The notes under the pieces were generated by a model that was not told where the DNA came from, did no database searches, and saw only the letters and a list, made by a program, of their open reading frames with translations. From Echinometra lucunter (Eukaryota > Echinodermata > Echinoidea > Camarodonta > Echinometridae), in NCBI GenBank assembly GCA_029962745.1, contig CM057158.1, positions 1,397,166 to 1,461,165 of the forward strand: DNA of 64,000 nucleotides, written 5' to 3'. A program made the translations under genes and the position numbers. Of this stretch, positions 7,159 through 41,841 are shown in pieces (the first letter of the stretch is position 1; the number at the start of each line of letters is the position of its first letter).

Positions 7159-7658
7159 NNNNNNNNNNNNNNNNNNNNNNNNNNNNNNNNNNNNNNNNNN
7201 NNNNNNNNNNNNNNNNNNNNNNNNNNNNNNNNNNNNNNNNNNNNNNNNNNNNNNNNNNNNNNNNNNNNNNNNNNNNNNNNNNNNNNNNNNNNNNNNNNNN
7301 NNNNNNNNNNNNNNNNNNNNNNNNNNNNNNNNNNNNNNNNNNNNNNNNNNNNNNNNNNNNNNNNNNNNNNNNNNNNNNNNNNNNNNNNNNNNNNNNNNNN
7401 NNNNNNNNNNNNNNNNNNNNNNNNNNNNNNNNNNNNNNNNNNNNNNNNNNNNNNNNNNNNNNNNNNNNNNNNNNNNNNNNNNNNNNNNNNNNNNNNNNNN
7501 NNNNNNNNNNNNNNNNNNNNNNNNNNNNNNNNNNNNNNNNNNNNNNNNNNNNNNNNNNNNNNNNNNNNNNNNNNNNNNNNNNNNNNNNNNNNNNNNNNNN
7601 NNNNNNNNNNNNNNNNNNNNNNNNNNNNNNNNNNNNNNNNNNNNNNNNNNNNNNNNNN
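7159..7658. other. Assembly gap, 500 N
   Basis: Exactly 500 N, typical of a placeholder of unknown size. Sequence on the left ends in CLCA exon-1 upstream DNA. Sequence on the right begins just below CLCA exon 8. Adjacency of the two contigs is therefore unproven. Confidence 0.98.
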
Positions 7659-7687
7659 ATCCGTTTCAAGAGAATGTCACTGCTTAC

Positions 7688-7817
7688 CGTGGATCCGACG
7701 AAAGCATTAAACGACGGGAGGTTTGTCGGTTGTCAACCTTGGTCTTGAGTTGACTGAAACTCCAATAGTTGCATTTTCTGCATTGTTGTTTATAATCTCC
7801 AGAGTCCAAATGCCTGC
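7688..7817 (-). pseudogene. CLCA gene Y exon 8, frame broken
   Basis: The acceptor is TCTCAG before GCAGGC and the donor is GTAAGC. Translation AGIWTLEIINNN...NSRP...DKPPVV matches exon 8 of genes X and W. One extra T at 7709 then gives TAA, and NAFVGST continues in the next frame up to the donor. The exon is 130 nt where X and W have 132. It lies 29 bases from the N gap, so a contig-end sequencing error is possible. Confidence 0.7.
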
Positions 7818-39710: not shown

Positions 39711-41341
39711 CTATTCAGAAGGAAAAGACTTAATGAGATTGACTAAAGCTCAAAATCAAAATAAAAAATCAAAAGCCAGTGAGATTAGCCATGTCGGACT
39801 CCTGGGTTCTTATACTTTGGTCTTTAGGGACGTCCATTGTGAGAGTAAAGCCCACGCGTATATACGAAATGGGATCGAATGAAATTGGGGAGTGCGATTT
39901 TCATTTCTCACCAACTCACCATCATAAATCGGCCTTCTCATCACAATCTACCCTCCCTGGAGAATATAGCGAGTGGCTAGTCCAGAACTTCAACCGTGAA
40001 ACTCGCCATGGCCAATGCGTCCCGTAATAATCTACCCAAATACTGAGGACTGGTACGATTTCAATTGATTTTTTTTAGTAAGCTTACGAATTCGTATGCT
40101 TAAAAATTGCGTTCAAAAATATCTTATTCAAATTCCAATATTCAAGAAGTATTCTTTAGTATATGCTTTCAACTAAGTAATGAATGCAATTTCTACCAAA
40201 ATCCGGTCATAACATAATTTATTCTCAGCTGGTTACAGAGGCATACAGTGGGTTTAAACATGGGGGGGGGGGGGGGGAGGGGGGCACCGAGTTGAAAAAT
40301 GTGTGCGGGTGTGTGTGTGTGTGTGTGTTGTGTAATATGTATAATGGGAGAAATAATGTTATTTATATCGTGTTAACAATAATAATAACCTCGAAACAAG
40401 GTGTCTTTAGGGAAGAGAAGCGTTTTTAAATTTGGGAAACTGATGCATTCTTGCTAGATACCACCTTGTTTTTAATTTTTGCGAGCGAGCCAAAGATTAC
40501 AACAATATTTGGAATGAAAGACGTGTTATTTTGTTAACAAAATAAACTATTGGATCACTGCAGTTTTTTATGATATCTCAATTATATACCTGGTCACCTC
40601 GTTGCCCATGACTCTTTTTATCATGTCCCTGATTGCTTGCTGCCTGAAACCACCCTGTTTCTAAATATTACGAGCAATCGAAGCAAGCGAGAAAACACAC
40701 TCTTTTTGAGTAGAAATAACCCCTTCATTAAATGACACTGTGAGCTTATGAGACATCTAAATTATTTGTTCGGTCACCTCACTCGCCCAATTCGTTTGCT
40801 TTCAAAATCCATCAAAAACAATTATTCAACAAGCGAGCGCAGCGAGCGAGGTGACTCAAAGGTGTAATCAGGTGAGCTATATTGTACTTCCTTCTATACT
40901 GTAACTTATTTTAAAGTGTAAACTGCACTTAAATATTCTGCTATCAAAACGGCTAGATAGATTGTTAAGTTCTGGCTGGGATCATCAAATTCATTGACAC
41001 TTATGGAAATACCACAGATGTAGGCCTAGCAGTCAACATCAGAAATGACAAACTCTACGCCCCACCCACTCTCTCTTTCTATATCTCTCTGTCTTGTTCT
41101 GTAAACAGTTTATGACATATGGGTATTATGGGTGAGATGCAGGCGCGTAGCCAGGGGGGCGATGGGTGCGGTCGCCCCCCCCCCCCAAAAAAAAAAAAAA
41201 ATGCAAAAAAAAAAAAAGGAAAAAAGAAAGAAAAAAAAGCGTGAGTGGGAAAAGAAAAAGGTAAGAGAACGTAAGAAGGGCGGGAGCAGACAAGGAACAA
41301 TGATAACAAACGTCGGAGCTTTCGCTTCGCGCGGGAGGGGG
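39711..41341. other. Region above gene X exon 5 up to the gap
   Basis: No CLCA exon 4 (MIDAS) or earlier exon is found. It contains a poly-G and (GT)n tract (40262-40330), a GCGAGCGAGC repeat block (about 40480-40850) and the start of a hAT-type repeat at 41141. Homology with contig 3 ends at about 39806, where a transposon begins at 62629. Confidence 0.6.
41141..41341. mobile_element. hAT-type MITE, cut by the assembly gap
   Basis: CAGGCGCGTAGCCAGGGGGG followed by the GGTAAGAGAACGTAAG and CTTCGCGCGGGAG phrases matches the elements at 17491-17796 and 61354-61669. The right end is lost in the gap. Confidence 0.6.
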
Positions 41342-41841
41342 NNNNNNNNNNNNNNNNNNNNNNNNNNNNNNNNNNNNNNNNNNNNNNNNNNNNNNNNNNN
41401 NNNNNNNNNNNNNNNNNNNNNNNNNNNNNNNNNNNNNNNNNNNNNNNNNNNNNNNNNNNNNNNNNNNNNNNNNNNNNNNNNNNNNNNNNNNNNNNNNNNN
41501 NNNNNNNNNNNNNNNNNNNNNNNNNNNNNNNNNNNNNNNNNNNNNNNNNNNNNNNNNNNNNNNNNNNNNNNNNNNNNNNNNNNNNNNNNNNNNNNNNNNN
41601 NNNNNNNNNNNNNNNNNNNNNNNNNNNNNNNNNNNNNNNNNNNNNNNNNNNNNNNNNNNNNNNNNNNNNNNNNNNNNNNNNNNNNNNNNNNNNNNNNNNN
41701 NNNNNNNNNNNNNNNNNNNNNNNNNNNNNNNNNNNNNNNNNNNNNNNNNNNNNNNNNNNNNNNNNNNNNNNNNNNNNNNNNNNNNNNNNNNNNNNNNNNN
41801 NNNNNNNNNNNNNNNNNNNNNNNNNNNNNNNNNNNNNNNNN
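41342..41841. other. Assembly gap, 500 N
   Basis: Exactly 500 N. The left contig ends in a multicopy hAT-like repeat and the right one begins inside another dispersed repeat, so the join may be unsupported. Confidence 0.98.

Follow-up and report, generated by a model that had tools for sequence, protein, structure and literature searches.

Contig 2 of the stretch of DNA analysed here very probably belongs to the other haplotype and was kept in the assembly and wrongly set in series between contigs 1 and 3. Reading it as the other haplotype of the junction between contigs 1 and 3 gives the best account, as far as sequence comparison can tell, of the collinearity of the contigs, of their breakpoints and of the truncated genes that they carry, and no other copies turned up among the best-ranked matches of our searches. 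If contig 2 is such an interleaved haplotig, the printed order of contigs 1, 2 and 3 is not the real order on the chromosome. As an assembly error this misplacement belongs to an ordinary and well-known class; the oddity is that half of contig 2 is far more divergent than ordinary alleles are.

Contigs and gaps in the window

The window is the whole stretch of 64,000 nucleotides that was analysed, C8:1397166-1461165 (contig CM057158.1) of the Echinometra lucunter assembly (743 Mb, 2266 sequences). We extended the analysis by 80 kb of flank on each side, giving 224 kb in all, and coordinates in the left flank are negative. Two runs of N lie within the window, each of exactly 500 bases, and no further gap occurs in the 224 kb of window and flanks. 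Contig 1 ends at 7158, contig 2 occupies 7659-41341 and contig 3 starts at 41842. No tRNA was found in the window.

7159..7658, no strand: scaffolding gap, 500 N
7659..41341, plus strand: contig 2, read as a retained second-haplotype contig
41342..41841, no strand: scaffolding gap, 500 N
41842..64000, plus strand: head of contig 3, collinear with contig 2 from 21766 onward, continuing to 67896 beyond the window

Contig 2 is collinear with contigs 1 and 3

The segments that take part in the comparison of the three contigs are as follows.

1..1507, plus strand: tail of contig 1, allelic to contig 2 19283-20742; the alignment continues leftward to -9276 (contig 2 7659)
1508..7128, no strand: 5,621-bp insertion in contig 1 only, without counterpart in contig 2
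7129..7158, plus strand: final 30 bases of contig 1, 26/30 identical to contig 2 20738-20767 (E 3.6e-4)
20768..21765, plus strand: 998 bp of contig 2 between its alignments to contigs 1 and 3; a dispersed repeat lies at about 20876-21008, and near 20880-20900 there is a CT/poly-A run
21766..25981, plus strand: contig 2 region allelic to contig 3 from 41842 onward, with 1.5% mismatch over 21766-25600
25982..40851, plus strand: contig 2 region collinear with contig 3, about 9-13% diverged, starting at the change point described below

Contig 1 from -9276 to 1507 aligns with contig 2 7659-20742, and the alignment begins at the very first base of contig 2, about 9.3 kb to the left of the window. 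Its firm anchor is 1-1507, which matches its counterpart at 92.6% with gaps included. The 5.6-kb insertion that follows is flanked by the 5-bp sequences ACTTA and ACATA, possibly a degenerate target-site duplication. The earlier note had called the end of contig 1 equal to contig 2 position 20767; a match is indeed present there, although with 26 of the last 30 bases shared the word is slightly strong. That contig 3 begins at contig 2 21766 was confirmed, with an alignment that runs from the first base of contig 3 (41842) for 544 bp at 98.2% identity. The collinearity with contig 3 extends to contig 3 67896 and contig 2 40851, 490 bp short of the end of contig 2.

In contig 2 coordinates, the end of contig 1 and the start of contig 3 are separated by 998 bp, in agreement with the proposal that the two contigs would lie about 1 kb apart if joined and that contig 2 spans the join. 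No counterpart of these 998 bp (20768..21765) was found in contig 1 or contig 3. Assuming that the breaks in contigs 1 and 3 fell independently along the length of contig 2, the chance of their lying this close is about 3% in one order and about 6% in either order. Apart from one-sided insertions, order is kept throughout both comparisons (7659-20742 with contig 1 and 21766-40851 with contig 3), non-coding sequence included, and the sole out-of-order block pairs contig 2 30.4-34.5 kb with contig 3 62.6-66.7 kb.

These relations suggest how the arrangement may have come about. One haplotype would run from contig 1 to contig 3 with about 1 kb unassembled between them, and the other would read through contig 2. 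Several large insertions and a strongly diverged right half may have led the assembler to keep the haplotypes apart; for the same reasons a purging step may then have left the alternative contig in place, and the scaffolder would have lined it up, set off by 500-N spacers, between both contigs of the very locus that it duplicates. We infer both the diploid dosage of the locus and the common haplotype of contigs 1 and 3.

CLCA genes end at the ends of contig 2

Exons were located by tblastn of a Strongylocentrotus purpuratus CLCA protein against the 224 kb, and the four genes found in and around the window are called A to D; primes mark the contig 2 copies where needed. Unless another source is given, the exons below come from the tblastn search.

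Left flank and 638..730, minus strand: gene A in contig 1, 12 exons; exon 1 at 638..730, exons 2-12 at -3287 to -14805
7685..19977, minus strand: gene A in contig 2, exons 1-8 (exons 1-7 by tblastn, exon 8 by DNA alignment to contig 1)
Minus strand: its exons 1-4, at 19867-19977, 15691-15990, 15126-15425 and 13758-14024
Minus strand: its exons 5-7, at 10039-10300, 9308-9631 and 8406-8660
Minus strand: its exon 8, at about 7685-7825, from the DNA alignment to contig 1, without a tblastn match
29498..39710, minus strand: gene B in contig 2, exons 5-12
Minus strand: its exons 5-8, at 39483-39710, 38852-39151, 37646-37876 and 36405-36539
Minus strand: its exons 9-12, at 35601-35753, 34997-35128, 34506-34763 and 29498-29950
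47990..62524 and right flank, minus strand: gene B in contig 3, 12 exons; exons 5-12 at 47990..62524, exons 1-4 at 97627-69087
-39164 to -22079, plus strand: gene C, 12 exons, left of the window
From C8:1657961, plus strand: gene D, B-like, known by exons 2-4 only from the profile search, about 165 kb past gene B

The genes in contigs 1 and 3 have 12 exons each, whereas both genes in contig 2 end at that contig's own ends, which supports the haplotig reading. Gene A in contig 2 has no exons 9-12 and gene B has no exons 1-4, each being cut at a contig end, and the exon map thus bears out what had been claimed of an A-type and a B-type gene. A further exon, at 635-802, had been thought to be cut from its partners by a gap. 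This proved wrong: the exon is the first of gene A, and exons 2-12 follow on contig 1 itself, between -3287 and -14805, so that the window edge and no gap parts them from it. The expected reduction of four CLCA loci to two holds within the window; the chromosome locally also has the complete gene C as well as gene D.

The contig 2 copy of gene A carries two small lesions. Exon 5 (10039-10300) has one extra base relative to contig 1 -6896 to -6636, is otherwise identical to it and is shifted in frame; an 8-bp deletion in this exon was ruled out by the same alignment, which shows the single extra base. Exon 8 (7685-7825) likewise has one extra base relative to contig 1 -9250 to -9110, shifting the frame near the contig end. 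These are either consensus errors or the marks of a null allele, and single extra bases in near-identical exons might be what is expected of a thinly covered contig.

The genes belong to the CLCA family

Three of ten translated contig 2 exon frames, corresponding to exons 2-4 of gene A, scored above the cut-off for PF08434, the N-terminal domain of CLCA proteins (calcium-activated chloride channel regulators), and the remaining seven matched no Pfam family. Searched across the genome, the CLCA profile gave 65 matches, among them A, A', B, C and D, with all 96/96 candidates scored, and matched 0/14 control genomes. The exon-2 part of the profile is covered by 23 of the 65, with clusters on C5 (6), C8 (5, two of which are the A pair) and C10 (3). 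A further pair, C10:25037139-25040456 and C10:25068047-25071340, lies 31 kb apart and is 91% identical over 3.3 kb. The gene B protein resembles most those of Strongylocentrotus and Lytechinus, as befits a sea urchin host: these genera supplied 10 of its 18 matches, eight of them B-like at 59-69% identity and the other two at 42-44%; the full-length sea urchin relatives carry a CLCA annotation.

The MIDAS motif of a VWA domain has the form DxSxS, and the end of exon 4, read directly, carries DTSGS or DISGS in gene A (both contigs), gene B (contig 3) and gene C. The VWA profile gave no match in the short contig 2 exon frames scanned. Vertebrate CLCAs carry an HEXXH metalloprotease motif. It is absent here: the aligned site reads RQFAKLRWGVFDE in gene B (contig 3) and gene C and RLWAKLRWGVFDE in gene A (contigs 1 and 2). 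This site lies in exon 3 (for example 15126-15425, minus strand), where RQFAK or RLWAK stands ahead of a conserved LRWGVFDE in A, B and C. Since the motif is missing from A, B and C and also from 5/5 urchin relatives that were fetched, catalysis of the vertebrate CLCA kind appears doubtful for these genes.

Divergence steps up within contig 2

End-to-end alignments supplied 22,151 gap-free columns in which mismatches were counted. Along contig 2 it amounts to 3.1% for 7659-20742, 1.5% for 21766-25600, 5.1% for 25601-26100 and 13.0% for 26101-40851. A single change point was fitted at contig 2 25,982, with 2.7% mismatch (390/14389) before it and 12.9% (1002/7762) after it (2dlnL 843). BLAST blocks from contig 2 28109 on gave about 9% over 6935 columns; the divergence of the right half depends on the alignment and is quoted here as 9-13%. 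Between contig 2 25,600-40,851 and contig 3 45,500-67,896 the rise from 1.5% to about 9-13% takes place inside about 500 bp, just past the 3' end of gene B.

Heterozygosity in sea urchins is about 2.1% in Diadema setosum (PMC11066563, in the excerpts available) and up to about 5% among values quoted in the excerpts of PMC11310861. Set against this range of roughly 2-5%, which those excerpts provide, the 3.1% and 1.5% of the left part fit and the 9-13% of the right part is too high. Gene A and the sequence flanking it behave as ordinary alleles. Between contigs 1 and 2 gene A has dS 0.048, dN 0.036 and dN/dS 0.75 over 564 codons, a count that leaves out exon 8 and the part of exon 5 behind the frame shift. 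Gene B differs more between contigs 2 and 3, with dS 0.177, dN 0.079 and dN/dS 0.44 over 610 codons and an amino-acid identity of 85.4%; for the same exons, gene B (contig 3) and gene C have dS 0.341. The step from 2.7% to 12.9% and the gene B dS of 0.177 are evidence against the haplotig reading. The earlier note had placed contig 2 as the other haplotype between contigs 1 and 3, and the core of that proposal stands, with the provisos that the right half is no ordinary allele and that contigs 1 and 3 are assumed to share a haplotype; what the comparison shows is that contig 2 is an alternative to each of them.

Some exons had been said to share only 70-82% of residues, and this is right, but it concerns gene B, where exons 5, 6 and 7 are identical at 82, 83 and 69% of amino acids. 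Positive selection was rejected as the reason, gene-wide dN/dS being below 1 in both genes (B 0.44, A 0.75) and exceeding 1 in single exons only, on few changes; the low identity reflects mainly the depth of the divergence. In a protein tree the two gene B copies pair as sisters, with support of 87/99 (not starred) and a path distance of 0.21. For comparison, the Lytechinus pictus and L. variegatus entries are about 0.17 apart, their orthology being assumed and two rows being about half filled. Judged from these comparisons, the divergence of gene B between contigs 2 and 3 appears to be of paralogue or species level. The likeness to gene C varies by exon: in exon 11, the contig 2 copy of B is 93.4% identical to C and 90.3% to its contig 3 counterpart, and in exon 6 the contig 3 copy is 91.7% identical to C and 88.0% to the contig 2 copy. 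This mosaic hints at exchange among the copies.

Insertions in contigs 2 and 3

Three further insertions account for differences between contigs 2 and 3.

26528..28108, no strand: repeat-family insertion in contig 2 only, with GCATTATAC on both flanks; long copies of about 76-86% occur across the genome
30375..34497, no strand: transposon-like insertion of about 4.1 kb in contig 2, with tandem repeats at both ends that are inverted to each other
62629-66892, no strand: relative of the preceding element in contig 3

The site of the first is clean and empty in contig 3. The two transposon-like elements sit in different introns of gene B, intron 11 in contig 2 and intron 4 in contig 3, each between short repeats of about 7-8 bp. 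In contig 3 both of these repeats read CTTATAC; those in contig 2 match imperfectly, at 6/8. Rearrangement was considered for the out-of-order block that they form and was rejected, since inverted end repeats, uninterrupted opposite sites and flanking repeats show two separate transposon-like insertions.

Searches for other copies in the assembly

Four DNA searches of the assembly were evaluated on their best 40 candidates. For contig 2 20000-21500, the best 40 of 1244 contained only contig 1 besides self and a short dispersed repeat, and for contig 2 24000-30300 the best 40 of 11454 contained, outside repeats, only contig 3. The gene B body of contig 2 (34498-39815) found only contig 3 (82-88%) among the best 40 of 3551 outside repeats, chiefly one of 390 bp. 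Exons 10-12 of gene A, searched as contig 1 -15000 to -10000, returned only self and repeats among the best 40 of 5935. Short copies can be missed by such searches, as happened with gene C, whose exon 11 matches at 94% along 257 bp and yet is missing from the best 40 of 3551 because repeat copies occupied those ranks; a long close copy would rank above the repeats. Among 30 loci compared, including all 23 exon-2 matches, there was no near-identical second copy of gene B exon 2, the closest being that of gene C, where the exon alone, 300 bp long, is 92% identical.

Alternative explanations

If the printed order were true, the contigs would form a real tandem array in which A and A' as well as B and B' are paralogues and the missing parts lie inside the gaps. 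CLCA genes do form clusters in this genome (23 exon-2 matches, with 6 on C5, 3 on C10 and 5 on C8), a pair on C10 has 91% identity along 3.3 kb, and a dS of 0.177 between B and B' suits paralogues. Such an array would require that the unit break at nearly the same place in contigs 1 and 3 (998 bp, a chance of about 3-6%) and that the 97-99% identity to the left and right of the join between contigs 1 and 3 be of recent origin by mere coincidence. It would also leave about 30 kb of B' and about 5.5 kb of A' missing, if these are spaced as in contigs 3 and 1, and neither part was found elsewhere among the matches listed. The printed genes, moreover, follow the pattern of an interleaved haplotig (A, A'B', B), whereas the order expected from a plain tandem duplication is A B A' B'. 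From breakpoints, gene order and missing complements we judge plain tandem duplication to be less likely, and consider a real array distinctly improbable. It is harder still to credit a chimeric contig 2, true to its haplotype up to about 26 kb and misjoined, at the repeat at 26528-28108, to sequence of another place. The divergence step does lie about 0.5 kb from this dispersed repeat insertion; it begins before the repeat, however, at 25.6-26.1 kb, the same GCATTATAC borders the repeat on either side, its empty site in contig 3 is clean, and order is kept for about 13 kb past it.

With contig 2 taken as a retained haplotig, the nature of its right half has to be explained. The contig 2 copy of gene B occupies an allelic position and is either an allele of unusual age or a copy specific to its haplotype. 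Where recombination is free, ordinary alleles would hardly yield a block of 15 kb at 9-13% with a sharp edge. One possibility, towards which we remain somewhat sceptical, is that the right half is a different member of an ancestral pair of B genes; unequal crossing-over or reciprocal loss would have left one member on each haplotype, and the exchange point would lie near contig 2 26 kb. It would accommodate the abrupt rise of mismatch, from 1.5% to about 13% inside about 500 bp, the mosaic likeness to C of exon 11 in B' and exon 6 in B, and the presence of a local family of close relatives in B, C and D; in a population that is very large and recombines freely, a deep block of 15 kb would be unexpected by chance. 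Contigs 2 and 3 are nevertheless collinear through exons 5-12 and the introns up to 40851, a third close B-like copy is absent among the best 40 of 3551 matches, and an old allele needs fewer steps. On balance we favour a broader statement, that the two versions of gene B are either long-kept allelic lineages, whose age may exceed that of species splits, or different local CLCA members and hence haplotype-specific content.

Significance and comparison with known systems

Counts of CLCA genes and of tandem duplications in this assembly would be affected, with two loci doubled and truncated genes annotated. A scan for a gap, a collinear copy and a second gap, together with genes truncated at contig ends, could reveal further interleaved haplotigs in assemblies of highly heterozygous invertebrates, and the diverged half of contig 2 offers a concrete site at which to study old or copy-variable CLCA haplotypes.

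In their family membership the genes resemble known CLCAs, with PF08434 matches in exons 2-4 of gene A and urchin relatives annotated as CLCA, and unlike the vertebrate members genes A, B and C are without HEXXH. The arrangement of the contigs resembles a false heterotype duplication or retained haplotig, in the terminology of the Vertebrate Genomes Project (VGP; PMC8081667, PMC9516828), in that copies from the two haplotypes are neighbours on one scaffold with gaps between them. According to the excerpts available of these two papers, heterotype false duplications arise where haplotypes diverge more and are mostly separated by gaps. The present case shares with those so described a raised divergence between the haplotypes and genes that are both multiplied and truncated. 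In its diverged half, at about 9-13%, contig 2 lies around or beyond the 10% divergence for whose resolution FALCON was configured, according to the excerpts of PMC8081667. It differs from the typical case, as these excerpts portray it, in being interleaved: contig 2 splits the contig of the other haplotype and is not merely adjacent to it.
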